From positions 21,038,001-21,102,000 of the forward strand of contig AP031357.1 in assembly GCA_037833965.1 (NCBI GenBank): a stretch of 64,000 nucleotides of DNA, written 5' to 3'. The stretch is from Marchantia polymorpha subsp. ruderalis (Eukaryota > Streptophyta > Marchantiopsida > Marchantiales > Marchantiaceae). Under the pieces are notes generated by a model. That model saw only the letters and a program-made list of their open reading frames with translations, was not told the origin of the DNA and searched no databases. Of the stretch, positions 35,501-57,110 are shown piece by piece. The position numbers and the translations under genes were made by a program. Numbering within the stretch: position 1 is the stretch's first letter; every line of letters begins with the position of its first letter.

Positions 35501-37380
35501 GTTTATACTTTCAAATAAATTATTAGCTTGCTCCTTACAGTTGCGGCCTAGGAGTCTAGGTCCCATGAGGTGTTTTAAATTCGTTTTTTGAATCAGTTGC
35601 CCTAATCATAGTTACTTACGGGTCGTTCATATGGCCTCCATACTTGGAATTCATGCGCATTTGATTTGCACTCGAGTACTTTCCTCGAACCGTTCTGAAC
35701 ATATCTGATTTATTCTCAAGAAATTATTTTAGCAAAGTAATTAAACGTTTGCATTACGGAAAGAATCTAGACCGGAAAAATAATTTTATAATATGGAGTA
35801 ATAATAATAAATCAATTAGCATGAACATGCATGCATGTTACAAATTGGATGTGTTTATTTTGACAAAACATCATGATGCAAAATGGAATGTAATCACATT
35901 GATTCAATAATCAAATATGCAATCAAGAGATTTTTTACCACTTTTCTTTTAATCTTCACACCTAGTTTGTGTGTTTCCTTAGTATAGCACACATGGATGA
36001 ACCTAGTATGTACATGATTCGTGTGCGTGTGTGACTGTCATGATGTTATCGGAAATTTGATGTTTAGAAAAATACACCTACATCAAAATTACATGATTTA
36101 CCTTTGTAGACTAGGTTCATTTAACATCTCATGTTATACCGAAAAACCCTAAATAGTGTCATTGAAAGTTTTAGTGAGCTATCTTCAAAGATTCATAGAG
36201 AATTGTTATAATTACATCAACCTGATTTATACCCATATAAAATTTTGTTCCATATATACATACAAGTTTAATTGTAGCCTACAATCAACATTTTGCTAAA
36301 ATCTCTAGCAAGTTTGTCTTTGATTTGTCTCTTCCAGAGCATATAATTGTCACCTCTGTCATAGTTTACAATATCATACTTCAAACTTTATGACAATCAT
36401 TTTTTTTAATCATTGAGGTTGTTTCTTGTGTCATTTGTATGAATGTGTATTTTTCATTTATAGGAAATTACCATGCATGAAAATTAATCTACAAAATTAG
36501 AATATAAAACTCCAGGATATAAGATTCATGCTCAAAACTCATGGCTTTTAGGATTTAAACTCAGGTCAGAAATATTTGCTCTGTAGTGTTTTGAACTCAC
36601 AAAAATGCTTTTACAAATATTTTTCCTCAACTTTTGATTTATGACAATCGCCTACATTCAAATTGAGTTTGTTTTCAAATTCTGCAAACATCAATTTGAT
36701 GATCTAATCCATGTTTCATTTTTCTTTAGTTCTGAAATCTGAGTGTACTTCAGAGTATTTCACTAGTGTTATTCTTCTTGCAGCACAAGGTTATAAATCT
36801 TTCGTCTAAATTTTCTTTCACTATTCAAACAAGTTGCACACTAATATTATTATTTTTACTTATTTATTGTTGTCAAAATTTGAAACTTGTAAGGGAAGAA
36901 AAACACTATGACTTTTTTTTCATCTCTTGCATATGGAGCAAAATCAAAATCACAAAGATTCAATTAAGTGCAAATAGCGAAGTGAAATCTAACAACAATT
37001 AATATCAAATTGATGTTACTTTCATAAAGTACTATTTTGAATGTTAGACAAATTTGTGGGTAACAAAATTTGTTCTTGCTTGTTTTGCTCCAGTAGCAAG
37101 TATAGCACTTTGACCATAACAACAACAACAAGTGTAATTTAACTTTGAGTCAATTTTTTTTTTACTCCATCATCAAAACATTTGTTATTTGACCTGCATG
37201 CCATGATTTGTACCAACCCGGATTTCCAATATATGGTGCTTAATTAAATATTATATTATATTATATATAATTTAAATTTTAAATCTTTAATAACATCATG
37301 TCAATATGGAAAAATACATGAAATAAACACTCATGTTTTTTATAATGGATTTATATTTTATCTATATTGTCATGGCTCGA
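32521..37380. other. Mostly A/T-dominated intergenic block
   Basis: No recognisable gene. An inner patch at about 34640-35640 has balanced composition but no protein-like frame. At 35824-35839 lies a perfect 16-bp palindrome, AACATGCATGCATGTT, which holds overlapping CATGCATG (RY-type) motifs. With no gene nearby I give it no role. Confidence 0.6.
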
Positions 37381-39699
37381 GACGTTGGGTCGATTTGAGT
37401 TTGAGGACGCGGTACACGTTGGGACGCCCTGCACGTTGGGACGATGGCGGGCTCGGGTTTTATAGGAGGCGAACTCGAAGAACTGTCAGTTCTTTGAGTT
37501 GAGCCTTACGCGCAGGAGGTTTCTCCACTAGCTTCGACTCTCATTCTACCTCAGGGTAGTGAGTTTGGCTCGACTCTCTATGTACAGTTTGTGTTTCGAC
37601 ACTTATGTTTTTACTCGAAGATCTGCGCAGGCACTGTTCGTGTTTCTCAAAAGTCCAAGATTTGATTGCCAATGCCTCGTTCAAGTCAACTTAGGAGCAC
37701 AGGTGGAAAGTTGGGTTCAAGGAGTTCCAGTGACAGTGAGAGCAGTGAAAAGTTTTGATTTTGATTCTGGATACAAATTCACGATCTTAAAAAGCACATC
37801 CAATGGAGAATGTTGTGAGAATCAGCAAGTTTTTGGTCTTAGAGCAAACTGAATATGGGATCTTGAAACTGTAAAGCCGCTAGTTGGCGCGTAAAGTCGC
37901 GGTTCAGAAAGCTGTGGAACGATTTAATTCTTGTACTTGATCTACCTTGAATTGACTGATGGTTTTGCCTCTTGTAATGTGAATTTAGAAGTGAATAATT
38001 TGAAACTCGCGGTTGTATCATCGTCGGTCAATCAATTGACGCTTACAATCGACTTCGCAAGGAATGTAGATGTTTGATACAATCCAGGAGTAAAATGCCT
38101 GGGCTCCAAGATCGAGGCATGGTTTTGATCTTCGAAGTCGAGCATCAAGTTCCGAGTCGGTGCATTTTTATACTCGATGCACTGTCGAGTCGAATCCTCG
38201 AGGTGGAAACTTACTGTTGGCTTCGCCGTGCGATCTTTGGCTGGGGACGTCTTGCTCAGGTCGGAGATTTAGGAGAATCTGCTGGGACTGTGTGTAGGGA
38301 CGAATCGCGGTGCTCCGCTTCTGGACCTCGTCTTCCGGGGGGCGATTCTGCTGTGCTGTGATGCGGAGGAGTGGGGGATTTTTTTCTGCGAGTTGGTATT
38401 TGCGTATTTTTTTGGATTAGGTTGGTTGGCGGAGCTGCTGCTGTGCGGGTGCTTGTGGTTTGATTCGATTGACAAGGTTAGATTTTTGGCTTCTTGGGGG
38501 CAGTTCCGCTTTGAAAGTGAGAAGGCCGAGCGGGAAGAATTTGTGCAGACGTTGCTGGTGTTTGACGCAATGTGGAAGCTTGGGTTGAATCTGTGCAATT
38601 GAAGAGGTGTAGAAGGAGGAGGCGATGATGAAGGCTGTAGATACTCGCGGGTGGATCCCGGTTCGAGACGAGCAACCAATGATAGGTTTGCTCGAGGTTG
38701 TGCCTTTCGCAAGACCTTGCCGGAGCTTTAGACGATATTCGAGCTGTCCTCTTCTGCAACAAAAATCCAGTCGGCCTGTTTGCGTTCGTGCCGCAGCTGA
38801 TAATCATGCTGTGCCGTTTCCAAGAATCAATGCCACAGAGCTGTAGGGTCAGGCTCGCGCTCAAGATGCTCAAAAGTTTGTGAGTGGACCTTTTGAAAAT
38901 CCGAGAGGGTCTTTTATAAATGATAAGGAAAGCCCAAAGACCAGCGCGAAGTGGCAAGACCGAACATGCATGAGACATAGATTTTGTTTTATAGTGTATA
39001 TTTAGTCGGTACATACAGCAAGCACGCGATGTTTCAAATTGAATAATAATAATTATATCAGCAGTGAAAACAAATAAAATAAAATAAATAAAAAATATAA
39101 AATAAAATGAAAATGAAAAATTCAGAAGGGAGAAGAGTAGTATTCTGAAGAGATTGAGAATTTGCACTCGTCTCACTTACTATGGTTTTTTGATTGTGAA
39201 AACATTCTACTCCTATATATATGACGTGGTCAACATTATACTAGAGTTTTTAGTGTTTCGTGTATGTGTTAGTTGAAGTGGTGAAAGTATACATTTCATC
39301 AGTATACCATTTCTTCTGGGGAACGAGTAGAGTAGACGGACGTTTAAGATTCCTGGCCCTAGTTGAAGGGGAGAAGTGAGTTGTCAGACGAGACAGTTTG
39401 GCAGAGATATTCTCTTGGCAATGCGATGCAGGAGATAGCAGTGGTGACGAAAGGTGGCAGGGAGGGATGGAGCTCGACTCGAGATCGCGATGCGAGGCGA
39501 CTTCCCGTGTGTTGTGTTGTTCTGTGCTGTGTTTCATTTTGGCTGGAGAGTCGTTGCTAGCTGTTTGCTTGTGTTTGGATCCTCTCCAGTCTGGCTTCTT
39601 GATGCGCGCCCATGTCTGGGTTGACGTTGATTTCAGGAGTAGTTTTACTTTAGTGTGCTGTCGATAGTGCGGCTAGATTTGATCATCGGCGTCTATCTT
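37381..39699. other. Unassigned GC-balanced region left of the retroelement nest
   Basis: Near 37390-37445 an ACGTTGGG phrase recurs three times. TTTTATAGGAGG and the palindrome AAGAACTGTCAGTTCTT (about 37480) follow. Open frames at 37559-37852 and 38074-38361 (plus) and a 232-codon frame on the minus strand (38478-39176) have no family likeness that I can see. A CCTATATATATGACGTGG box lies near 39212. Part of this region may belong to the outer retroelement, whose left end I could not find. Confidence 0.4.
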
Positions 39700-39936
39700 T
39701 GTTTCTCTCATGGTGAGACTGGAGTGATGACCAGTGTACCATGAGAATCTTCTTGCGGTGATGGCAGGTTAGGTTGCCCATATCCATAGTCAGTAGGGCT
39801 AGAGCAGGTTAGTGCAGGGACGAGGGCAGGTGGAGTTGTGGCAGTGGTGCCGGTTGGTGAGTTAGTCATTACGGAGGAGTTTGGTGGTTCCGTTGAGGAC
39901 CGTGGAGGATTTACGCGGAGTGGATTGAGGTATCGG

Positions 39937-39941
39937 CTACC
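39937..39941. repeat. Target-site duplication CTACC (left) of the inner element
   Basis: CTACC lies directly before the 5' LTR and again directly after the 3' LTR at 45975-45979. A 5-bp duplication is normal for Ty3/Gypsy integrases and shows a single clean insertion event. Confidence 0.95.
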
Positions 39942-40348
39942 TGTAACCATCTTTAGTTAGTTAGAACTAAAGTAGAGGTTACTCTGAATATTGATGTAGA
40001 TACTTTAGTGTGCACTAGTCATAGTTGCCACGTCAGCGATCCGCGCACTTGGTAGGTACAGAGTGGATGTGTTAGTTGATAGTGCCACGTCAGCAATCCG
40101 TGTGCTTGTAGGTAAGGATTGAGTGTGTTAGTTGGGTGCGCCACGTCAGCGATCCGTGTGCTTGTTAGGTTATCCGCCACGTCATCCATCCACTAGAAGT
40201 GGGATGGATGGTGGGGATTAGATCTTATCACCTTGTACTTGTTGGTGAGAGCTATATAAGGGAGAGTAGAACCATTGTTGGTATCTCTCATCTTCAGAGT
40301 TTACGTTTCTATCTTCGAGTGAACTTCTCTCTAAACCCTAGTGTTACA
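39942..40348 (+). repeat. 5' LTR of the inner element
   Basis: Starts TGTAACC and ends GTGTTACA. A TATA box (CTATATAAG, about 40252-40260) marks the U3/R border region. GCCACGTCA recurs at 40027, 40084, 40140 and 40176, the first three in a 56-57-bp tandem repeat. This core contains ACGT and is a likely bZIP-binding site. Confidence 0.95.
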
Positions 40349-40349
40349 A

Positions 40350-40361
40350 TGGTATCAGAGC
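40350..40361 (+). other. Primer-binding site, tRNA-Met(i)
   Basis: TGGTATCAGAGC starts two bases after the 5' LTR. It is complementary to the 3' end of plant initiator tRNA-Met and is the usual primer site of plant LTR retrotransposons. Confidence 0.93.
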
Positions 40362-42130
40362 GACCTTGCTCATCCTTGAGTGTGGATTACCCCTCATGGA
40401 ATAGCAAATGAGTGATGATGGAGTGTAGTCTTGAGAGTGTATAGAGGCTGGCTGAGGTCATCCATCTGCATGTAGAGAGAGGTGGAAGGGGGAAATTGTG
40501 TTTTTGCAGATATGGACGGGATTGATAGAAATCCAGTACCGCACTGGCCAATTCCTAACCTATTCGATATTCACCTTCGTTGCATGGAGAAACATCATTT
40601 TCGGATGTAACTTGTGGCTTGTTGGGGTGCAGATTTTATGACTAGAGTGATGGAGTCAAGAGTGCCACTGATTCTTCCAATAGTTACTTATGGAGAGAAT
40701 TGGGATTGTACTATATACATTCTATACTGATTGTTTCATGGATTTGAATCGCGAACCACCTGTCCCGGTTCGATTCAGCACTTATGTAGAGATTAGAACA
40801 GTATATAGACAGAAGAGTATATAGAGAGATTTTCTTGTGATGAATTATGGAGAGGAGTACTATAGAGCTGTGATAGAGTCACCTGCACCTTTTGTGACTC
40901 CTTTGTTGAAAGGTCACATAGTGATTATACTCACTTTGTATTAGAGGGAGTGTGAGAAAGCATGGGAACATCAATGGATATGGGTGAGGTTCTCAATGCA
41001 ATCATGGCGGAGATGAAAGAGTTGAGAAAAGCGATAGTAGATGGGCATACCAAGCAGCAAGCCATGGAAGATAAAATCTTTGCATTAGAGAGTGAGAAAG
41101 TAGAGAGAGAGAGTTGGAGAGATGGAAGTTGAACCTCAAGTTCAAGCTTCCCAAGTTCAGCCAGAACCAACTCCTATTGATGCAGTAGATGCAAATATGT
41201 GACGTCTTCAAGAGATTAAAGATCAAGCAAATCTTTTGCTTCGAATGGAAAAATCCTGTAAGGTGGAAGCTTACAAAGGGAGTAGAGCAATGGGAGTGTT
41301 AGAGGGATGGATTATGAGGATGAATATTCATTTATCCCATTTTCATGTTTCTGATTATATTGCAGGAATGTTCATGAGATCTTATCTTACGGATAAGGCT
41401 CTCACATGGTACACAACATGGGAGAGAATGCTTTCAGAACGAGGTGCTACCATTTCGTGGAGTGGAATGCAGGAAGAACTTCTGCAAAATTTTCAAGCGG
41501 TGGATTCTTTTCAAACTGCAAGAATGAAGTTGTGGGATCTGAAGCAGAAAGGAGGTATTCATGAGTAAATTGAAGAATTTCGTGATCTTCAAGTATCTAT
41601 CATGGATATGAGTGGAGCTGAAGCCTTGGACGTGTTCAAACGAGGCTTGAAAGATCAAATTCGAAAGGAGGTGATGGTAAGCAATCCATCTACTGTGAAT
41701 GAAGCAATCGCAATTGCTCAACGAATTTCAGGTGCCTTTGGTGTCACACACGGTGAACCAGTGAGCAATTTTAGAGATCCATCTGGTCCAACACCGATGG
41801 AGTTGCGAAACCTTCGACGTAGAGAAGGTTTTGCACTAACAAGAGGACCACCACCAAGATTTGGAGGTGAGATTAGGCGACCAGGAGTTCCAAATTTGCA
41901 AGAAGGTTATGCAAATAATGGAATGGTTCGAGGAGTAGCTGGAGTTCGTGACAATCGTCAATGCTATGCATGTGGACGAATAGGTCACATAGCCAAGTTT
42001 TGTCGAGTTCGGCCGACACAACAAGGAGGACGGCCCATGCAACGACGACCGTTCAACAATATGGAGGGGATAGAGTATGAAGAGGTGGAGGAAGCAGTTT
42101 CGAGAAACGAAGATCACCAGTAATCTTGCC
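40362..42130 (+). other. Inner element: leader and gag
   Basis: After an untranslated leader, a gag region runs from about 41200, with RSYLTDKALTWYTTWERML, a typical retrotransposon capsid phrase. A CCHC zinc knuckle, CYACGRIGHIAKFC, is encoded at about 41962-42003 for RNA packaging. Confidence 0.88.
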
Positions 42131-45100
42131 TCGCGGCCTTACTGGTTCGACAAAGCGAAGAAAAGGCGAGGTTGGAAGAAGGCAATGGTTGGGAGCTCAT
42201 GGAAGGAGTAAGAAGCAAGCTCAACTCATTGTCACTAATGGTTTCATGGAAAGACACAAGGTGAGATTTTTAATTGATCCTGGAGCAACTGAGAATTTTC
42301 TATCAAGGAGTGTTGCTATGAAGTTAGGTTTGATGTTGATGAAGGACGTGAGTGAAGAAGTTGAATTGCCAAACGGGCAACTGAAGTGATAGAAACACTA
42401 CCACGGAGTGTAGAATTAACCATAGGTAGATACAAGGAGAGCATTGAATAGAGAGTAATTCGTTTAGCTCGATATGATGTCATCCTTGGAATGCCATGGA
42501 TGGAACAATATAATCCGAAGGTAGATTGGAGAAAAAAAGTGATTACAAGTAGTGGATGGAAGATCTATGGAGATAGAATTAGATCTCAGAATAGGAATTT
42601 ACCCCTCTTTGTGATGGGTACAGTATCCATTTCTAGAGATGATGTATGTTTCCTTGGACTTATAAGAGATATTGGATACACGGACAAACCTTACATCCCG
42701 GAGTCCTTGAACGACATTTTTATGGAGTATAAAGATGTTTTTCCAGATGATCTACCTGTAGGATTACCACCAAAGAGGCGAGTAGATCACAAGATTGAGA
42801 TGATACCTGGAAGTACACCAACTTGCAAAGCTCCATATCGTTTGGCTCCAAACGAATTGGAAGAATGCAAAGCTCAAGTGGAGGAGATGTTGAGCAAGGG
42901 ATTCATTCAACCAAGTGTTTCACCTTATGGAGCTCCAAAACTCTTTGTGAAGAAGAAGGATGGATCCATGAGACTATGTATCGATTATCGCGGGTTGAAT
43001 CAGCAAACGATGAAAAACAAATATCCATTACCTCGTATGGATGATTTGTTTGATCAACTTCAAGGAGCGAAATACTTCACCAAGCTAGATTTGAGAAGCG
43101 GCTACAATCAAATTCGAATTGCAGATGAAGATGTTCACAAGACAGCTTTTCGTACTAGGTATGGACACTTTGAGTATCTGGTGATGCCTTTTGGTCTCAC
43201 TAATGCACCAGCTACATTCATGGGATTGATGAACGATATCTTTCGCCCTTATCTAGATAAATCTGTCATTGTTTTTCTAGATGATATATTGGTGTATAGC
43301 AAAACTTTGAGTGATCATAGAAGTCATTTACGAGAGGTACTTCAAGTTTTAAGAGACAATCAATTGTATGCCAAAGCTTCAAAATGTGAATTTGGCAAGT
43401 CAAAAGTAGATTACTTGGGTCATAGAGTTACAGCTACAGGAATCCAAGTGATGAGTGAGAAGATAGATGCCATCCAGAAATGGATAGCACATGAGGATCA
43501 AACTCAATTGAAGAGTTTTCTAGCGCTCACTGGATTCTATCGTAGATTTGTGAAAAGTTTTGCTCGACTAGCTCAGGCCTTGACTTCCATGTTAGGGAAA
43601 GGTCAAAAGTGGAGATGGGGAACAGCTCAAGAGTTAGCTTTTCAAGCATTGAAAGATGCTTTGTTACACGCACCTATTCTCAAGTGGTATGATCCTAACC
43701 AATCTATCAAGTTGGCCACTTACACATCAGGTACAACAGTAGGTGGCATACTTCAACAAGAATGGGAGGATGGATGACATCCAGTTGCTTTCTATTCTTG
43801 AAAGTTGGTGGCGGCGGAACAAAATTATCACACGACAGAACGGGAGGAGTTAGCCATCGTGTTGGCAACCAAACATTGGAAGCATTATTTGGATGATAAG
43901 GAGTTTGTGGTGGAGACTGATCATAAACCCTTGGTTTATTTGGAAACTCAGAAGTATCTGCCCAAACAACAAATTCGATGGGCAGAGTGGTGTCAACGTT
44001 TCAACATGAAGATTGTGTATGTGGAGGGAAAGAAGCAACTTGCAGATGCTCTCACACGCATGCCTTGTTTGAATCATGTTGCAGAAGTGAAAATTCAGGC
44101 GGATTGGTGGAGCAAGATGTCACAAGCCACAAAGGAGGATGAAGAGATCACTCGGGCACTACAAACTGGAAAGGCAGAGAAATCTCGAGGTTTGGCGTTT
44201 TACAATCAGCGTATATGGATTCCACAAGATCACGATTTGCGCACAATGATTTTGGCAGAAAGTCATGATACAGCCATTGCAGGTCATGTGGGAGTGGTGA
44301 AAACCGTGAAGAGTATACAACGAGTGTACTATTGGCCCAAAATACGTGAGGATGTGGAGTCTTATGTTCGAAGTTGTGTTGCTTGTCAACAAAACAAGGC
44401 AAGTAATAAAAAACCAGCGGGTTTATTACAGCCTCATCCTATTCCCGAACAGCGGTGGGAACATGTCACCATGGATCTTGTATGTGAGTTACCAAGGACT
44501 TCGTTAGGACATGATTCTGTGGTGGTTTTTGTGGACAAATTGAGCAAGATGATTCACATCAGGCCAACCACAAAAACAGTAACAGCTCCACAACTAGCTC
44601 AATTGTATCTAGATGCAGTTTTTGTGAATCATGGCTTAAGCAAAGGGTTAATCACGGATAGAGGTTTTCACTTCACTAGTTTATTTTGGAAAACTTTGTT
44701 TAGTTTTTTCAAAACAAAACAAACAATGTCAACGGCCTATCACCCTCAAACTGATGGACAAACTGAGAGGGCAAATAGAACCATAGAGTATATGCTACGA
44801 GCATTCACATTAGAAGAGCAAGAAGAGTGGGACAACCTTTTGCCACTTGTGGAATTTGCATATAACAATTCTGTTAATGCATCCACAAAAGTGTCTCCAT
44901 TTTTTCTTATGTATGGAGCTCATCCTATAACTCCTTCAAGTTTGATGAGACTTCCCAAAGGAGAGGAGTTTTCGATCAAAGTTGCAGCAGTCAACGAATT
45001 CGTGGAGCATATTCACTGAGGACTACATCAGGCCAAGGAGAAGTTGGTGATAGCTCAAAATCGGCAAAAGCAGCATGCTGATGCTCATCGTAGAGAAGTG

Positions 45101-45553
45101 ATTTTTGAGGTTGGAGATCATGTTTGGTTATCTACAACGAATTTGTCTCTTGTAGTAACACCAAAGTTAAACCCTAGGTTCATTGGTACATTTTTGGTTT
45201 TGAAGCGTGTTGGTGAAGTGTCATACAAGTTGGAACTTCCGTCACATATGAAAATACATATAGTATTTCATGTGTCACGATTGCGAAAACATGTACCACG
45301 ACCAAACCAATTCACCAACCAACCAGCACCACCTTCTCTTCCAACCTTGATAGCAGATCATGTGGAGTTTGAGGTAGAAAAGATACTCAAGAAACGTATT
45401 CGAGGTCATAAATATCCCAAAGTAGAGTATTTGGTTCAATGGAAAGGCTATCCATCGTATGAATCAACTTGGAAACCAGCTAAAAATTTAGCAAATGCAC
45501 CTTTGATAGTTCAAGAGTTTGAACGTATGTGCAACGAGGACGTTGCATCTTGA
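42131..45553 (+). other. Inner element: protease, RT, RNase H, integrase, chromodomain
   Basis: The protease phrase LIDPGATENF lies at about 42271. Reverse transcriptase includes [27 protein letters not shown] and FLDDILVYS (about 43270). RNase H includes VETDHKPLVYL. Integrase has AGHVGVVKTVKSIQRVYYWP with CVACQQNK (zinc domain), and STAYHPQTDGQTERANRTIE (core). A chromodomain at about 45360-45540 reads VEYLVQWKGYPSYESTWKPA. The chromodomain places it among the chromoviruses. Confidence 0.93.
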
Positions 45554-45566
45554 AAGGAGGGAGGTT
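45551..45566 (+). other. Polypurine tract of the inner element
   Basis: TGAAAGGAGGGAGGTT lies directly before the 3' LTR. A purine run here primes plus-strand DNA synthesis in LTR retrotransposons. Confidence 0.85.
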
Positions 45567-45974
45567 TGTAACCATCTTTAGTTAGTTAGAACTAAAGTAG
45601 AGGTTACTCTGAATATTGATGTAGATACTTTAGTGTGCACTAGTCATAGCTGCCACGTCAGCGATCCGCGCACTTGGTAGGTACAGAGTGGATGTGTTAG
45701 TTGACAGTGCCACGTCAGCAATCCGTGTGCTTGTAGGTAAGGATTGAGTGTGTTAGTTGGGTGCGCCACGTCAGCGATCCGTGTGCTTGTTAGGGTTATC
45801 TGCCACGTCATCCATCCACTAGGAGTGGGATGGATGGTGGGGATTAGATCTTATCACCTTGTACTTGTTGGTGAGAGCTATATAAGGGAGAGGAGAACCA
45901 TTGTTGGTATCTCTCATCTTCAGAGTTTATGTTTCTATCTTCGAGTAAACTTCTCTCTAAACCCTAGTGTTACA
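45567..45974 (+). repeat. 3' LTR of the inner element
   Basis: Same 408-bp sequence as the 5' LTR apart from seven substitutions and one inserted base. CTACC, the target duplication, follows at 45975-45979. Confidence 0.95.
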
Positions 45975-45979
45975 CTACC

Positions 45980-47160
45980 TCATCCTAGCGCATCAGTGGT
46001 TGCAGAGGCACGGGGTGTGACAGATGGCGGATCTTTGGTGGTGATATCATCTAGGGTCCCACACTCGTGGACTGGGGACATGGACGGTATGTACGGGGCC
46101 ATGAAGGGCCCACGGCGGTACTCTAGTGCAATGGGCACCATTGAGTTGGATGATTTCATCCAGGAGTTTGACACGTGGTGCGATAGGTAGTTCTTGCGTA
46201 ACCCCACGTTGTTTACATCTTTCTTTGCATGGAAGGGGTTGTTTCAGCATCTGGAGGGGCCTCCCATGGATGACTACCATGAGTTTGGGAGAGAGTATGC
46301 TGTGGAGATTGATGCATGGAGGCGTCATTGGTCTCCAAACTACATGTCTATTACACAGAGTGGTGTTGGTACTAGTGGAGATGCGAGTGGTAGCATCACC
46401 GATGGTACTAGTGAAGCAGGTACCACCAGGGGTGCTATTGGCATTGCCAACACGAGTGGGGAGACTACTGGCGTACCTTCGTTCAACCCCATTCCTGAGT
46501 TCTTCAAGAGGTTGAGGAAGAACTATCAGGGGGTGAGGACGAAGAAATTGAGGAGTCTCCAAGAGTTTGAGCGGAAGACTGGTGAGAGTCTTCGGGAGGC
46601 ATACACTAGTATGCGGCCGTTGATCTCAGTTACTCACGGTGTAACTGAGGCACAGGCGGTCCAGTATTGGTACAAGATACTGGACAGAGAGCTACGGCGG
46701 AGGATTTGGGATGCTACCCTCTTGAGCGATGCGTCACCGACATTGGCCTATGTGTTTGCTCTTTCTTAGAAGATTGAGCTGAACATAGTGGAGGAGAGAG
46801 TGGTGACATCTTCATTCGCTAGAGACACGCCCACTACGTATCGTGTCCCTTAGAGCACGACACAGTCTAGACTCTTTGGTGGTGGTAGTGGTGGAGGTCG
46901 CGGAGCGCAGACACGACAGCAGGCGACCGCTAAAGAGACTAGAGCTCGTACACCAGTACCATCGTTTGCTAATCAGCAGCAGGGACCAGCATGTTGGACA
47001 TGGGGAGGTGATCATCTACGTAGGGATTGTTCCCAGGAGGCCAGAGGACGGAGTACACAGGCGAGACACCAGTCAGCACAGGTGATGTGTGACCATTGTG
47101 GTCGAGCCGGTCATCCTCGAGATCGATGTTTTGACCTTCATCCAGAGTTGACATCTGGTG
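45980..47160 (+). other. Outer element: gag-like region and zinc knuckle
   Basis: Right after the inner element, the sequence encodes retrotransposon-gag-like stretches: FFKRLRKNYQGV, LRSLQEFERKTGESLREAYT and QAVQYWYKILDRELRRRIW. These fit the capsid-type gag domain. A Gly/Arg-rich part follows, with the zinc knuckle CDHCGRAGHPRDRC. No clear protease motif was found between this and the methyltransferase domain. Confidence 0.75.
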
Positions 47161-47494
47161 GTAGAGGTCGTGGTGGTGATGCTCCCCGGGGCCGAGGTGA
47201 TAGAGGTGCTAGTGCAGTTGGACGACCGGTAGTGAGTGCTGCGTCAGCTACAGAGAGCGCGATGGCAGCCCGGATTGAGCAGTTGGAGCAGAGGCTTGCT
47301 GCTATGGCGGGTACTGGGGCGAGCTCGTCCACATTTCACGACGGAGAGGATTTCCCTTATTTAGCTTGGAGGAGGCATTCTTACCAGCAAAGACAGAGCG
47401 AGTTTCAAGTGGTCGGCTAGTATGTGGTCTTAGCACCATATCACCATTAGTTACTACACCTATCGTATGGGAGTATTCCCCATAGGGTGTTTGT

Positions 47495-48450
47495 TTGCTG
47501 GATCTTTTTGGAGGGATCAGCACGGGTTTGGTTGCAGTGTTGCAGTCAGGTATTCTTGTACGTAGATACTTGTACGTGGAGAAGGACGAGACTGCACGTC
47601 GGGTTTCTTCACGACATGTTATAGAGTTGATGCAGCGTTTTCCTTTGTTGTTGCCGCGATCAGCTGTTTGAGGATACTAGAAGACGTTGCCTTCAGACAT
47701 TTCATTGTTGGGGGCGCCAGACCTCGATTGAGTTGGACATATCGATTTGGTGATTGGGGGATGGCCATGTCAGGGGCACACACGCGTTGGGCATGGAGCA
47801 GGGTTACATGATCCGAGATCTCGGATGTTTTGGGAGATGCTACGAGTGTTACGTCATCTCCAAGAGCAGCAAACACGTTCTCCCGCATACATTCTAGAGA
47901 ACGTACCATTGTTGGGTAACACTCGAACCCAGTTGATGGCGAGTGTCCATGAGGTCAGGGCATGGATTGGATCAACAGTGTTGTTGGATGCTGCGAGGGT
48001 TGGTTCACGTGCTCATCGTGCACGTTTATGGTGGACCAACCTTGTGCCACGAGAGATATTGCGTCATGCGTATGATTCTGTGCATCGCGATCCTACACTC
48101 ACCGTTGACAAGATCTTGGATGTCTCTCGATACTCTCAGGTGGTGAGAGTTGCTGACAGGTCACCTATGGCATTGATGAACCGCGTAGGTCAGCCTCGGA
48201 TGGCTTTACCTACGTTAGTCAGTTATCCGACATCACATGCATATCGTGATGGTGGATCTGGACTACTATGGGACAGTACTCTACATCAGTTGGTGGAGCC
48301 CAACGTTGATGAGAGAGAGCATGCGATGGGATTTATGACTGGTGTGACCGCGGCTTCTTTAGTTTCAGAGGCGTCGCGTCGTCAGGTTTTGGGTCAGGCT
48401 ATTGACCTAAACTGCTTGACATGGATTGTGAGCTTGGGCTTGGCCGAGCA
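47495..48450 (+). other. Outer element: DNMT3-like C5 cytosine methyltransferase domain
   Basis: The canonical motifs of C5 methyltransferases occur in their normal order. Motif I is LLDLFGGISTGL, with VEKDE after it, for S-adenosylmethionine binding. Motif IV is VIGGWPCQGH with the catalytic Cys. Motif VI is YILENV. Motif VIII is GSRAHRARLWWTN. The C-terminal motifs are VDEREHAMGF and VLGQAIDLNCLTWIV. VxxAHRARxxWxNL and the IATGL-like motif I are features of the DNMT3/DRM side of the family rather than DNMT1 or bacterial Dcm. The domain lies between gag and reverse transcriptase on the same strand as both. It shares in the decay of the element. Confidence 0.88.
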
Positions 48451-48719
48451 ACGCCGTTTGCGCGTTGATTTGGTGGTTGTTACATCACTTGTTAGCTCAT
48501 TGCCTACCGAAACGGTAGTGGCAATGGCTGGGGGCGACAGGCGAAACATTCGTCATCCTTGGAGTTCATGGGACGTGACGAGAGGACTTGCTAAAGTGGC
48601 CGCCCATGCAGTTGGAGATGTTGGTCGCGGGGAGGTTTCTACGAAGGAGGGTACGGAGAACCGTTCTTTGGAGGAGGTGTCATAGCAACTAGTGACAGTA
48701 TCGCCTCCCTCTTGTGGGT

Positions 48720-51600
48720 CCATAGAGGAGGAGTGGGAGCCATCGATTGGTTCTCAGATCACCGGAGGAGAGAGGCGACGGTTGACACAATTCCTACGTG
48801 ACTATAGGAGTTGTTTTGCCTTCAGTATGAAGGAGTTGGGTACTTTGATTGGACCCGGCATACGGATAGAGTTGGCTAGTGATACGCCAATCTTCCGTCG
48901 TCCCTATCGATATAGTGATATGGAAAGGGACTTGATTAGGAGTCGTACGTTGGAGTTATTGGAGGCAGGGTTGGTGGAGTTGTCGCATGGTGAGTATGCG
49001 TCAGCCACTGTTATGCCAGCGAAGAAGGATGTACATGGCAACTACACGGATAGGCGCATGTGTGGAGACTACCGTCTTATCAATCGGCAGACAAAGGCCG
49101 ATAAGTATGCCATGCCTACACCTGCGGAGATCTTCGATGTGGTGGGACATGCGAGGATTTTTTGTACTTTGGATCTTCGGGCGAGATACCATTAGTTGCC
49201 GATTTGGGAGGAGTACAAGGCCAAGACAACGTTTTGAGGTGTCAACTCCCATAGCAAGGATTGTTTGTATTAGTGGCGATTCTTACCCTTTGGGTTGAAG
49301 AATGCACCTGCCGAGTTCCAGAGAGTGATGGATAGGATTCTAGCGGGGCTAGATTTCGTCAGATGTTACATTGATGATATCTTGCTGTTTAGCGACACGG
49401 TGGAGCAACACTAGATACATTTGCAGATTGTGCTTGAACGGTTGAGGGCTCATGGTCTGCGGTTACATCCTGGGAAGTGTAGGTTCTTCTAGGAGAAGGT
49501 GGAGTACTTGGATCATGTGATCTACCCAGGTGGTTTGGGAGTTCAGCAGGCAAAGGTGGAGGCTATTGCGTGCATTCCTTGTCAGGCGGATGTGAATAGG
49601 GTTCGTGCATTCATGGGTTTGGCGAACTATAACCTGAGGTATGTGAAGGGATTCAATGCTATAGCAAAGCCTTTGAACCAGTTGCTGAAGTCGGATCAGG
49701 AGTGGCAATGGGGAGATGAGCAAGAGAGAGCTTTTGTTGAGCTCAAGGCCAGATTGATGGCCGCTCCCATCTTGAAAAGACCTATCAGAGGTCGTTCATA
49801 CGAGTTGCACACTGATTGGAGTATGTTGGGACTTGAAGCGGTGTTGACGCAATGTGATGATGAGGGCAAGGAATTTGTGGTTGCGTACGCTAGTCGTTCG
49901 AACAATGCAGTAGAGTCGTGGTATAGTTCGTACGAGGGAGAGTGTTTGGCAGCGGTGTGGGCTGTGGCACACTTCAGGTGTTACTTGTTTGGTACGCAGT
50001 TTACCCTTGTTACCGATCATCAACCGCTCAAGTGGTTGATGGAGTCTGACAAGCTCACAGGAAAGCTTGCACGGTGGGCTATCATCTTACAGGAGTACGA
50101 CTTTCAGGTGGTGCATAGGCCTGGAGATGCGAACTTGGATGCCGACGATTTGAGTTGGAACCCATGCACTAGCCAGGAGGATGACACTGGAGCTAGATGG
50201 CATGATGAGGTTGAGGAGAAGATGATGCCCGGTTGGCATGCATCTGCCTTCATGTGTTTGTTACGTGGAGCCTCTAGTAGTGAGAACCACTTGACATCTT
50301 ACTCTAGTCAGAGAGTAGATAGTTAGTCTTCGGATCCTGACGTTGAGGATGGTGGTGTGGACCAGCGTGATGTCCACGATGATGCGTTGGTGTTGGAGTT
50401 CCTACGGACCAGTATGGTGCCTGGCACAGTGGGTGCCAAGGAGCGAGATCGTGTTCTCCAGCGGGCGAAGAGATACCGATTGGAGGGATCACATGTTCTC
50501 CGAGTGTGGGAGGACGGTAGGGTACGAGTAGTACCGCATCCAGCTCAGAGAGCACGCATTGTGAGGCATGCTCATGAGGAGTTGGGACATTTTGGAGTGA
50601 AGCGTATGTACAGCTTACTCCTAGGTCAGTATTGGTGGCGTGGTATGCATACGCAGGTACAGCAGTTGGTATCACGTTGCATGGTTTGTGATCGAGTGAG
50701 GGCATCGTTCAATGCCCCGACACCAGAGTTACATCCCTTACTTATCATGGAATTGGGTTACCGTTGGAGTATGGACTTTGCTAGACCACTACCTTTGACT
50801 GCACGACATCATCGGTTGTGTTGGTGATGGTGGAGCATTTCTCCAAGTGGATTGAGTTGGTGGCATTACCTGACAAGGCGAGTGAGGGAGTAGCATATGC
50901 TTTCCTTGACAAGGTGCTTAGTCACTTTGGTGCACCAGCTGAGGTGTTGACCGATCAGGGGACAGAGTTTCAGGGTGAGTTTCAGGTCTTGTGTGACAAG
51001 ACGCTGATTGATCACCGGACTACTTCCCGAGATCATCCAGAGGCGGATGGTTTGGCTGAGCTGATGGTACAGACGGTGAAGAGAGCGTTGCGCAAGTATG
51101 GCCTAGAGAAGGGGCATCTTGGGGACTGGGATATTTAGTTACCATGGCTGGCCATGGGATATAGATTCAGTCGTCAAGCATCCTTGGCTTCGTTTTCACC
51201 ATATTTTCTATTGTACGGCCGAGATCCAGACTTGCCTGCAGCGATTCATCGTGAGTCTAGCGAGGTGGTGAACCTTGATGATCCAGATATGTGGATGAGA
51301 GTGTGTTCCCAACGTGCAGTGCTCTTTTGGAGAGTTATGCCTGCAACGTTCGAGAACCTTACGATTGCTCAGCACAGGGATACGTTGCGGTATGCAACTA
51401 TTCGAGGAGGAGGTTATCAACCATCGATTCGTAGGTTCCGTGTGGGAGACTACGTCTATTTACAACAGACTGCACCGACTACGTTGGATGTGACGGCAGA
51501 ACGCACTATTTTGCGAGTGCAAGAGGTGTTACCTTCTGGAGTTCTCATGTTGGAGGGTCGTGATGGTGTCGTTTGGAAGGATCATGTGCGCAACTGTGCG
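48720..51600 (+). other. Outer element: reverse transcriptase, RNase H and integrase
   Basis: Reverse transcriptase motifs include FRRPYRYSDMERDLIR, MCGDYRLINRQT, TLDLRARYH and the catalytic YIDDILLF (about 49360). RNase H has VTDHQPLKWLM. Integrase has the H-H-C-C zinc domain HEELGHFGVKRMY...CMVCDRV (about 50570-50700). Its core has TDQGTEFQGEF and DHPEADGLAE. The domain order RT-RH-IN is that of Ty3/Gypsy rather than Copia. No chromodomain follows, and a PHD finger stands in its place. Confidence 0.85.
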
Positions 51601-51649
51601 CCTTGCCACCTCCCAAATGTTGATGGTACTATGGATCCAAGCTCTGCGA

Positions 51650-51820
51650 TTGTATGTGCCGGCTTGAGGTGCATGTTATGTGGGTAAGCTGATCAGGCGG
51701 GCCATATGTTGGTGTGTGATAGGTGTTCTAGGGGATGGCACATGTTGTGCTTGACTCCACCTATCGATGTTGATCCTACTGGACGGTGGGTTTGTCCTCG
51801 ATGTACATCAAAGGGTAGAT
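51650..51820 (+). other. Outer element: PHD finger after the integrase
   Basis: The Cys/His spacing is that of a C4HC3 PHD finger: CMLC, then MLVCDRCSRGWHMLCL, then WVCPRC. The GWHxxCL and WxCPxC phrases are very typical. In host proteins PHD fingers read the H3 tail (K4 state). In chromoviruses a chromodomain at this position steers integration. By analogy I infer a targeting role here. Confidence 0.8.
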
Positions 51821-52085
51821 GACTTGATCTTCACATGTTATGAATTGCAGATAGGCGACTAACGATGGAGCGACATAGCACCCGGCCTACTGGTTTGCGC
51901 ACCCACGAAGGTGCATAGCATGTAGTTGTAGATAGGGCTACCTGGGAGTCAGAGGGACCTGACTGCCAGCTAGAGGGGCAAGTTGTGATACCTTTGTGTG
52001 TGGACACTCTCGTTCCTTGTGTATGTACGTGTGAGTTGTGAGTAGAGCATGTCAGCGATGTATGATGTATGGTGATACTTAGTCG

Positions 52086-53240
52086 CACGACAATATTTTT
52101 TACATTTACATTAGAATTTTAAAAGTCATATATAACAACAATCGTAATTAACAAAAAAAAGACCACAACAAAGAAGTTTGTTTATTACTTTTGACTAAAA
52201 GTACAAATCTTTGCATAGTTTATACCATTCTTAGGTTTTGACATTGTGAGAAAATTCTTGTTTTTCCAATTTGAACATAAAACATCATGTTATCATGAGA
52301 TTTTAAAAGTTTATCACAATGAAGAGTATAAAATAAACAGATTTTTTTCAATTCATACATCTAGCCTGTTAATAAATTGAATTTTTTTAAAAGAATATTT
52401 AGGTTAAAAAACCATTGCAACTATATAAATATGATAAATAGTTTGATTTTTTGGATTTTTTTTTCAAGTTATGATTTCATCACCAAATTATTCTTTTAAA
52501 ATCGTACTGAAAAAATCAATTGATAGATAATACAAGATTTCAAAATTATATGTATGTCTTACAGTCAATATTTTTCAAAGTTTAATGTTCAATAGAAATA
52601 CATGTTTTCTTAACAATTTTGTTATCTTGTTTGAAATCACAAAACTGACATCTGAAAATATGAATTTACATTTAAATAAACAAAAGAACCTAAAATCTAT
52701 TCAAAATATTATTATGCATGTATGAGAATTATTTAAAATAAATTCTTCTTTATTAAAGTCATTTTTCAAATTTGTGTGATTCAAATATATTTATGAAAAT
52801 TTTAGATTAAAAAAAAGTGACTTGAATGGATGGAAAACTAATTAAAATTTTTTAATATATGAATGAAAAGTGTGTGATATCCTTCCAGTTGTTAGTGATG
52901 TTTTGGGCGAATAAGAATTATTTTTAAACAGAAGAACAGTATTTTATCATTTATCCAAAAAATGTTTGATTCTCGCAAATAGGCACACTTTTCTTCACAA
53001 GTGTATGATTATCATAATTGTCCTACATTTTCATGTTAAAATGTGACTTATGTCTTTCTCTTTGTTTCATCTCGTGAAAATTTGATCCGCAACGAAAACA
53101 ATGTTGTGTATGCGTTTATTACATCTTGCGCTAACCACTTCAGTTTTGTGGTACATTTAATTTAATACATAATAGGAAGTAATATCTGTCTGATTACTTC
53201 TTTATTTTATAATTTTTAATCTAAACAGGATTTGTATTGC
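52086..53240. other. A/T-dominated intergenic block
   Basis: Starts abruptly at the right limit of the outer retroelement. Contains no frame or repeat that I can define. Confidence 0.6.
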
Positions 53241-55486: not shown

Positions 55487-56440
55487 TCAGCCCATGGCTT
55501 CCCTGGCCATCTCATATGCCAAAAAGCAGGCGGCATTGGCAGGGACACTACGGCACATGGCAGGACCGAAACCTCTGTAATACCCTTTGATTCCTTCGGC
55601 AGCAAAAACTTTCTTGAATGCATCAAAGGTACCTTTGTATTTGGGATTCCGATGGTCGTCAACTTGAATTACACTTTTGATTACATCCGCCGGATACACG
55701 GACATCCAGAATACAGCACCCGCCACACCTCCAGCGGTCAGTTGAGATCCTCTTCCCAACTGTGAAGTGTCTTTTCCACCAGCAATCAGCTGTTTCGTCG
55801 CCTCGTAAGTCCCAAACATGGCAGCATTGCCGGGTACTTCTCTCATGAGAGTAGGAGTCATGCCTTTGAACAGACCGAGGATCCCACCCTCGGACCTTAG
55901 TACATGTCTGGCGACATCCATGGGGCCAGTGTACTTGATGCTTTGGGCGGCAGCGCTAGCAGTGGCAGCTGGGGCGCCGGCCATTGCAACTGCTGGGGCG
56001 CCTTCGACAACGACTGCAGCGGATTGCAAGGCACTCTGAGCTTGCAGTCTGCACTTGACGAGCTCTGTAGGGCAGGCCACGAAGGCGACGGCCAATCCAG
56101 CTCCAGCTCCACAAATGAATTGCTGCCCAGCCGACAAGTGAGCTCCAGGCGCATCTCTCAGAAGCGTCTCCATCTGACCTCGTGAGGTGAAGAGAACAGC
56201 ATTGAACACCGCCACAGTGGCCAGAGGAGCACCCATGCCTTTGTACAATCCTCGGGGCCCTTCAGCGGCGACTGTTTTCCTGACTGCATCCATCGCCCCG
56301 GTGAAGTGCGGGGGTTGCCCGGGAGGTGGCCTCGGCTGACTCTGCAGCTTCACTTTGATGGTGTCGAAGGGATGCCCCACCAGAAGCTGTGCCACACCGG
56401 CCAGCGTACCAGCTGCCAAATCCTTTGCGACGTCCCCCAT
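55487..56440 (-). CDS. BOU: Mitochondrial carrier, BOU / carnitine-acylcarnitine carrier-like
   Basis: 317 residues with the three-fold repeat of mitochondrial carriers (SLC25). Signatures: GHPFDTIKVKLQ (Pro24), ACPTELVKCRLQ (Pro124) and YPADVIKSVIQ (Pro250), each ending a first helix of a repeat. Start MGDVAKDLAAGTL, FTGAMDAVRKTVA-EG-GLYKGMGAPLATVA-FNAVLF, GPMDVARHVLRSEGG and the end SVPANAACFLAYEM agree closely with Arabidopsis BOU (A BOUT DE SOUFFLE), an inner-membrane carrier needed for photorespiration. Its substrate is disputed (carnitine or glutamate-linked). Met at 56440 is chosen. An upstream in-frame Met would add 11 residues unlike the family. The loop after the second signature is enlarged and Ala-rich (about residues 134-167). 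No intron interrupts the gene. Confidence 0.95.
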   Translation of the reverse strand: MGDVAKDLAAGTLAGVAQLLVGHPFDTIKVKLQSQPRPPPGQPPHFTGAMDAVRKTVAAEGPRGLYKGMGAPLATVAVFNAVLFTSRGQMETLLRDAPGAHLSAGQQFICGAGAGLAVAFVACPTELVKCRLQAQSALQSAAVVVEGAPAVAMAGAPAATASAAAQSIKYTGPMDVARHVLRSEGGILGLFKGMTPTLMREVPGNAAMFGTYEATKQLIAGGKDTSQLGRGSQLTAGGVAGAVFWMSVYPADVIKSVIQVDDHRNPKYKGTFDAFKKVFAAEGIKGYYRGFGPAMCRSVPANAACFLAYEMAREAMG

Positions 56441-57110
56441 CTTGAAAGATCTCGACACACACAGACAGCACACTCCAACACTACCTCAAATTTCGATTCT
56501 CTTCACTCCAAGTGCAACCGACGACTGCCAAGCCTCGCAATCGGGTGAAATCGGTACCAGCAACAAAATGTCCACCCCGGGAAGCTCCCTTCGAACACCG
56601 ACTCAAGCTACAGACTCAACTCGCAGCAGCAGAGGCAGCAACTCGAAGAGTCCGCTTGCTTGCTGCTGGAAGCCTGGCTCGACTCCAGCGGCGGACCACA
56701 GAATTAAATACGAATTGGGATGAGAAGACGAGCAATGCTCGAGAGCGAGCGAGCGCTGGGAGGCGCACCGAAGCCCTGGGCCCTCGTCGCCCTTCGCTTC
56801 CCTTTCCTTGGGTTCGCACGAGCCCAGCCACAAACCAACCGTACGCGGTGCACGAGAGGTCGGGCGTCAGAACTGCAGTTAACTGCAAGGTTGGAAAGGC
56901 GGGCGCGAGCGGGGGAGCAGCGCTCGGCCGCAGAATGTAGCGGTCTCAAATTCTGTGCAGGCAGAGAGCGCAGGGGCACAGCAGCAGGAATCCCGTTTCA
57001 CCATTCGTGTCCACATGCGTACGTCCATCGGCTGAAACCGTCGGCCCTCCTTCAAAGGGGGCTGCACCTGCGGATGTCTGCCCCGTCCGTTCGTTCACGA
57101 TAGATTTCAT
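56441..57110 (-). promoter_or_regulatory. Upstream region of the BOU-type gene
   Basis: CpG-rich sequence 5' of the carrier. Overlapping Arg/Ala-rich frames on both strands are chance frames. No clear TATA box on the minus strand was found. Confidence 0.45.

Follow-up and report, generated by a model that had tools for sequence, protein, structure and literature searches.

Retroelements that have captured a cytosine methyltransferase are known from an alga and from dinoflagellates. The closest described system, KnitGypsy-Dnmt3 of Klebsormidium nitens, is a Gypsy element with Dnmt3 in its Pol open reading frame (ORF), DIRS-like repeats, no introns and a ratio of non-synonymous to synonymous change (Ka/Ks) below 0.2, as presented in the main text of PMC5890265 (de Mendoza et al. 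2018). SymbioDIRS-Dnmt3 and SymbioLINE-Dnmt of dinoflagellates are described there as well, and DNMT3 in retrotransposons of streptophytes and dinoflagellates is mentioned, citing de Mendoza et al., in the available text of a 2025 paper (PMC12344493). No report of a methyltransferase-bearing retrotransposon in a land plant was found in the accessible part of the published literature, preprints not covered; the Marchantia polymorpha enzymes listed in the available text of PMC5784723 are MET, two CMT and two DRM. Here we describe such an element from a 64,000-nucleotide stretch of Marchantia polymorpha subsp. ruderalis, referred to as the window (GenBank assembly GCA_037833965.1, contig AP031357.1, positions 21,038,001 to 21,102,000). 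The window copy, itself decayed, belongs to a multi-copy Ty3/Gypsy-type family that has young copies, and it carries a DNMT3-like C5 methyltransferase domain (MTase).

The family resembles KnitGypsy-Dnmt3 in its Gypsy domain set, DNMT3-like MTase, lack of introns, DIRS-like split repeats and Ka/Ks below 0.2. It differs in the position of the MTase, which is described in the Pol ORF there but here shares the frame of gag and protease, ahead of a TAG codon, a comparison of text descriptions only. The odd repeat layout common to both suggests common descent, and raises the question whether it goes back to a single old capture, to horizontal transfer or to convergence. The two dinoflagellate systems are likewise retroelements with captured cytosine MTases, with split repeats in the DIRS type, but as described in PMC5890265 SymbioDIRS-Dnmt3 has a tyrosine recombinase and SymbioLINE-Dnmt has no long terminal repeats (LTRs), whereas the integrase of this family is of the rve type and its target duplication is 4 bases long. 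A word search of the main text of that paper found no instance of PHD, gag, protease, chromodomain or Marchantia. The kind of element is already known; a PHD finger after the integrase, an MTase that shares a frame with gag and protease and precedes a conserved read-through-type TAG, a putative 11-base self-primer site and apparent host capture were not found in the accessible literature on such elements.

Methyltransferase identity, copy number and selection

A preliminary description, made from the letters of the window alone, had reported a C5 methyltransferase with ordered motifs at 47495-48450, labelled it DNMT3-like and placed it between gag and reverse transcriptase (RT) on one strand. 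The domain was borne out, with an aligned span of about 47483-48451 and a Pfam match to PF00145 at 47732-48682 (E 2.6e-9, 37.4 bits against a cut-off of 22). Motif I (DLFGGISTG) lies within 47486-47671 in the frame of the PF00145 match, and in-frame stops separate this piece from 47732. The motif order is unpermuted (I, IV, VI, VIII, X), and comparison with PDB sequences gave DNMT3A (E 3e-10) and DNMT3B (2.5e-8) as the closest solved relatives, followed by DRM (7.6e-5), the bacterial HaeIII (4e-4) and DNMT2 (0.0019-0.023); nothing named DNMT1 was among the PDB matches up to E 1. By these matches the MTase is DNMT3-like, closest to DNMT3 among the solved C5 methyltransferases, and the earlier label was right. 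A permuted enzyme of the DRM type was ruled out by the motif order together with the scores of DNMT3A and DNMT3B above DRM. The position also held, the MTase of other copies lying between the protease and the TAG that precedes RT.

The catalytic motifs I (DLFGG), IV (PCQ), VI (ENV) and VIII (HRAR) are invariant in all 20 aligned copies. Host DNMT3 enzymes share the unpermuted motif order and are the best match among solved structures, but they have PCN where the family has PCQ, and the family MTase is fused to Gag-protease, with neither an ADD nor a PWWP domain found in the family's proteins using Pfam. An AlphaFold model of the MTase built from 20 near-identical copies had a mean pLDDT of 35.5.

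The genome (241,466,482 bases, 9 contigs) was searched with a 317-residue piece of the MTase. At least 125 matches (self included) were found among 630 first-look candidates, with identities of 83-100% and almost always over the full length, which places the match far beyond chance. A genome search with PF00145 scored at least 123 places from 290 candidates, and the merged lists held at least 173 distinct MTase places, on all nine contigs. When the best 150 of 3015 candidates for an RT piece were scored, an MTase was found less than 2 kb upstream on the same strand for 118 of the 150 RT matches listed and at 3.8-16.6 kb for four. The remaining 28 had no MTase among the matches listed, where it may be unlisted, deleted or decayed. 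Conversely, RT was found within 9 kb downstream of 115 of the 173 MTase places among the matches listed, and none was listed for 58; the counts concern listed matches only, and neither remainder shows true absence. In one RT match with no MTase listed (C5:26521413), the spacing from leader to RT, measured by hand, was about 2.2 kb shorter than in copy L038, as after an internal deletion. For a piece covering the integrase end and PHD finger, at least 150 matches were scored in the genome, the best 150 of 514 candidates.

Four MTase places without the element signature were detected in the searches with human DNMT3A and PF00145 (C6:12459429, C3:19066767, C2:342506 and C2:6440771-6442635). Identity to DNMT3A in the first three is 39-43% and confined to motifs I-IV, as expected of a DRM, and element copies match human DNMT3A at about 34% or less. 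Judged by the matched part of the profile only, these four are probably host DRM or DNMT3 genes. A search of viral contigs found just 6 loci, in which the best segments were 28-39% identical.

Twenty copies were fetched for closer examination. They were picked for long open frames, and the share of open copies is therefore biased: ORF1 ran uninterrupted for at least 1250 residues in all 20, and ORF2 for at least 1000 residues in 14. In every one, ORF1 encodes in a single open frame a gag-like sequence, two CCHC knuckles, a protease motif (DSGA, identified by eye) and the MTase; the Retrotrans_gag match in ORF1 of copies other than the window copy was weak and under the Pfam cut-off. ORF2, which continues in frame past a single TAG and has a Met codon near its start, encodes RT, RNase H, the zinc-binding and rve core parts of an integrase, and a PHD finger. 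Pfam searches of ORF1 and ORF2 of two copies found the rve integrase and no tyrosine recombinase, ruling out a DIRS element with that recombinase, and no chromodomain match was found after the integrase, the PHD finger occupying that place. It is very nearly certain that this is the anatomy of the family, namely gag-nucleocapsid-protease-MTase in ORF1, a TAG, and RT-RNase H-integrase-PHD in an in-frame ORF2, with split repeats.

Chromoviruses carry a chromatin-reading chromodomain after the integrase. The family differs from them in its PHD finger in place of the chromodomain, its added MTase and its permuted repeats. It is like chromoviruses, Tf1/Sushi and Tcn1 among them, in having a Gypsy pol with a chromatin-reader domain behind the integrase. 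Self-priming has been predicted for Tf1/Sushi and Tcn1 (PMC6317226); in the available text of that survey of plant LTR elements, a word search found neither PHD nor methyltransferase. An extra frame of about 115 residues (acidic, starting MPLGEK) is conserved upstream of gag in L033, L035, L031 and L036, and ends in TGA-TAG in the three copies for which the letters were printed.

Ka/Ks was calculated by the NG86 method between two subfamilies (8 x 12 copies for ORF1, 5 x 9 for ORF2). Values were 0.126 for the MTase (Ks 0.28), 0.099 for gag, 0.153 for the nucleocapsid and 0.148 for the protease, and in ORF2 0.056 for RT, 0.051 for RNase H, 0.093 for the integrase, 0.050 for its C-terminal part and 0.172 for the PHD finger. 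The linker from the MTase to the TAG gave 0.594. The MTase is under purifying selection between subfamilies, and the low values for MTase and PHD beside that of the linker indicate that selection kept both domains during multiplication of the family and the adjoining linker much less. Within the subfamilies, MTase Ka/Ks was 0.175 and 0.255.

The two subfamilies were separated alike in trees of the MTase (21 sequences) and RT (20). Only subfamily II separated in the midpoint-rooted integrase-PHD tree (19), where L027 formed a very long disrupted branch in subfamily I. The B1 and B2 repeats, which are short (112-128 bases), were identical in 10 of the 13 copies with both and 97.7-98.3% identical in the other three, and recent activity of the family is therefore likely.

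Terminal repeats, putative self-priming and apparently captured stretches

The terminal repeats are not in the usual LTR order but are split into A and B repeats at the element ends, and the element is therefore called Gypsy-type by its proteins. The family has both a DIRS trait, the repeat order A-body-B-A-B, and a Ty3/Gypsy trait, the pol order RT-RNase H-integrase (rve). The whole repeat order was read in two copies, with the layout A1-body-B1-GC-A2-B2, A repeats of 291 and 293 bases that are 100% identical between A1 and A2, and target duplications TACT and TGTG. All three copies with both ends read, including the window copy (ATAT), have a 4-base duplication. A1 was not found in the upstream stretch at hand of five other copies. 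The B1-GC-A2 junction was present in 14 of the 20 fetched copies, while three had their end precisely at B1, where GCACGACA gives way to unrelated flank, and three were disrupted. The window copy, like the three, ends at B1, giving the layout A-body-B. A polypurine tract stands ahead of B1 in all 17 undisrupted copies, and the window copy has an altered form of it. In L032, around 7871-8317, the A2 repeat runs straight into the 5' part of another copy, forming a head-to-tail pair.

Directly after A1 is CTCGAAGAACT, the complement of which was found once within A in L025 and L038 as an exact 11-base match. In these two copies, 14 of 12,483 and 6 of 12,077 positions show 11-base complementarity to the preceding 291 bases, true sites included. 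The RNA would start at the 11-mer, and reverse transcription would be self-primed over 11 bases, as in Tf1. A conventional LTR would correspond to B-GC-A, and the repeats would fit a usual LTR if this were cut internally. The integrase may open circular DNA inside the LTR at GACA-GC-TGTC, one-LTR circles giving A-body-B and two-LTR circles A-body-B-A-B. Such opening would account for both repeat forms, the TG...CA ends and the 4-base duplication, and the element anatomy suggests a way for split repeats to coexist with an ordinary integrase.

The interval between A1 and the leader contains unrelated sequence in copies that are otherwise 98% identical (L023 and L025; L036 and L038), and is common to L033 and L035. 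It was compared with the genome for the window copy, L025 and L038, and matching places, known as matches only, lie away from the listed elements. In the window copy, stretch 1 matches C3:13181078-13181575 at 95%, with a weaker two-piece match at C3:13242434-13242999 (82-86%), and stretch 2 matches C9:5740723-5741520 at 95%, with a weak match at C5:3567390 (66%). The two stretches abut within 2 bases, and stretch 2 overlaps the leader by 11 bases. The L025 interval was found in one further element copy (C8:14541111, 98%) and at C5:22811783-22812993 (100%; two blocks, separated in the genome by about 60 bases that the element lacks), and its two halves, overlapping by 12 bases, match C9:2898561 (95%; C6:2691476 at 92%) and C3:5311008 (97%). 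The interval of L038 is common to two other copies (97-98%), and part of it matches C8:17049734-17051111 in three blocks at 78-86%, the genomic gaps of about 800 and 170 bases being largely absent, as after splicing. We infer that fragments of host RNA have been captured repeatedly, apparently by template switching. Differing, otherwise rare sequence is carried between A1 and the leader at window positions 37625-38958 and in the 5' regions of L025, L038, L023, L031, L033, L035 and L036.

Possible roles of the methyltransferase and the PHD finger

DNA methylation is usually a weapon of the host against transposons, and here a mobile element encodes the same kind of tool. In a family that has young copies and open frames, the MTase is retained under selection and is paired with a histone-reading finger on the integrase. 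The sequence TAG-CAR-YYA is a known leaky stop context. The window copy fits it, as do all but one of the 20 fetched copies, L026 differing at one base, and TAGCAAC at the ORF1/ORF2 junction is invariant in all 21 sequences across two subfamilies with differing upstream codons. Occasional read-through of the TAG would yield Gag-protease-MTase-Pol, and the MTase would be made at the Gag level and packed with nucleic acid. Placement of the MTase before the TAG predicts such synthesis and packaging, and hence action on the element's own nucleic acid, and we consider read-through and packaging probable. ORF2 might instead be made by separate translation, with which the Met codon near its start agrees, or after removal of the TAG by splicing, but the single in-frame TAG and its invariant context across subfamilies that differ upstream make read-through-free synthesis unlikely.

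The MTase would methylate the new DNA copy, or the landing site, before or at integration. An insertion that is already methylated would be quiet, with less harm to the host and less exposure to naked-DNA sensing. Self-methylation of new copies is put forward tentatively, at somewhat less than an even chance, and the family offers a direct way to test if a transposon can methylate its own DNA. The PHD finger would tether the integrase to histone H3 tails. Several of the proteins CHD4, KMT2C/D, PHF12, DPF3, PHF21A and KDM5 read unmodified H3K4, and the chances that the finger serves in targeting appear evenly balanced.

Several observations weigh against this account. The PDB relatives of the PHD finger are mixed and include the proteins just named (KMT2C listed as MLL3), motif IV reads PCQ where DNMT3A has PCN, and the MTase of KnitGypsy showed no activity in yeast, a result its authors call inconclusive in the text available (PMC5890265). 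The biased choice of open copies and the 28 RT matches with no MTase listed count on the same side. CpG observed/expected was 0.71-0.75 in the 17 undisrupted copies, 0.86, 0.69 and 0.68 in the three disrupted ones and 0.74 in the window copy, with 0.57 in a nested MTase-free Gypsy element and 0.86 in the rest of the window; CpG loss in family copies is not unusual and lends little support to self-methylation. Between copies there was a mild excess of transitions in CpG context, which made up 17% of the differences in ORF1, where 10.6% of columns are CpG, and 11-17% of those in ORF2, where 9-10% are; host methylation alone could explain this excess.

The MTase may act on the host, altering methylation at the target site or genome-wide or competing with host methyltransferases, and thereby ease integration or weaken silencing. 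Its conservation under selection in the roughly 170 listed places and the chromatin contact to which the PHD finger points are in keeping with this, and effects of retroelement MTases on the host methylome were raised for dinoflagellates in the main text of PMC5890265. Location in the Gag-protease frame suggests packaging with the element instead, and the same text describes the alga's methylome as resembling those of land plants despite such elements; we regard a host-directed role as improbable. Slightly less probable still is a domain that no longer methylates DNA and serves as a structural nucleic-acid binder in the particle or methylates RNA. The PCQ motif and the inactivity of the algal domain in yeast, inconclusive as its authors found it, would fit, but the catalytic Cys, ENV and HRAR are invariant in 20 of 20 copies, the MTase Ka/Ks is 0.126, and the RNA enzyme DNMT2 matches far worse than DNMT3.

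The preliminary description had left room for two other outcomes, that further copies lack the domain and that the MTase segment has borders of its own. The search with a C5 methyltransferase profile for copies beside Gypsy RT, which it had proposed, has now been run in this genome, and the domain recurs beside 118 of the 150 listed RT matches; in all 20 fetched copies gag, protease and MTase lie in one ORF1, and the MTase and RT trees are congruent. With the copy number, these results rule out a lone fossil insert or host fragment, and a chance position between gag and RT, which the patchy window copy (stops, deletion, nested element) taken alone might suggest, has virtually no probability left.

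Taken as a whole, the combination of a selected Gag-level MTase, TAG read-through, self-priming, self-methylation and PHD tethering is the explanation that we favour, with moderate confidence. A more elaborate version, in which the element both writes and reads chromatin, seems doubtful: the packed Gag-level MTase would methylate new copies, the PHD finger would choose unmodified-H3 chromatin, copies would arrive silenced after self-priming and integration from circles opened within the LTR, and host RNA fragments taken up repeatedly downstream of the primer site would give every lineage its own methylation-ready cargo to spread.

Features of the window copy and its surroundings

The element in the window is larger than earlier described, with ends at 37368-52092 (Table 1). 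Gag-like and CCHC sequence lies upstream of the MTase, and RT, RNase H and integrase downstream, all on the same strand. The copy had been called a fossil, with good reason: both ORF2 and the frame of the MTase are interrupted by stops, some 1.2 kb that L025 has ahead of its MTase, protease site included, is missing at 47364/47365 right after the CCHC region, and a nested Gypsy element, with pol domains and no MTase, splits ORF1. The window A1 matches the A repeats of L025 and L026 over 34-35 bases at 100% and over 147-172 bases at 83-86%, with 37402-37454 unaligned.

Table 1. Coordinates of features of the methyltransferase-bearing element within the window
Feature	Position	Strand	Basis or remark
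Target site duplication ATAT, left	37364-37367	.	Directly before TGTC start
Repeat A1, left end, starts TGTCATGG	37368-37613	+	Piecewise match to A of L025 and L026
Self-primer-like 11-mer in A1, decayed	37488-37498	+	By exact 11-mer of L025 and L038
Putative primer binding site right after A1, decayed	37614-37624	+	
Apparently captured stretch 1	37660-38157	+	Genomic match on C3
Apparently captured stretch 2	38156-38958	+	Genomic match on C9; contains short frame with Met
Element leader common to other copies	38948-39789	+	Many matches to 38948-39200; 39451-39942 95% identical to L025
Position of ORF1 start, cut by nested element	39790-39941	+	L025 18-509 aligns to 39451-39942; L025 ORF1 frame opens at 357
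Nested Ty3/Gypsy, not part of the MTase element	39942-45974	+	LTRs 39942-40348 and 45567-45974; target duplication CTACC
Gag-like part of ORF1, internal stops	45975-46769	+	
CCHC nucleocapsid-like region	46854-47364	+	About 1.2 kb absent directly downstream
DNMT3-like MTase	47483-48451	+	In-frame stops; borders from alignment of other copies
TAG between ORF1 and ORF2, context TAG-CAA-CTA	48683-48685	+	
ORF2 RT and RNase H, broken	48686-50326	+	
ORF2 integrase zinc-binding, rve core and C-terminal parts, broken	50327-51660	+	
PHD finger at ORF2 end	51670-51804	+	PF00628 E 3.7e-12, 46.5 bits against cut-off 24; one stop written as X
Repeat B, right end, ends GCACGACA	51981-52092	+	95-97% to B of L025 and L026
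Target site duplication ATAT, right	52093-52096	.	Directly after GACA end

The nested Ty3/Gypsy element has 407-base LTRs that are 97-99% identical and a primer-site-like TGGTATCAGAGC. Elsewhere in the window, two long host-like frames were seen on the reverse strand, a glutamine-rich one of 1995 residues at 8949-14933 and one at 55490-56485 for a protein that, by eye, resembles mitochondrial carriers.
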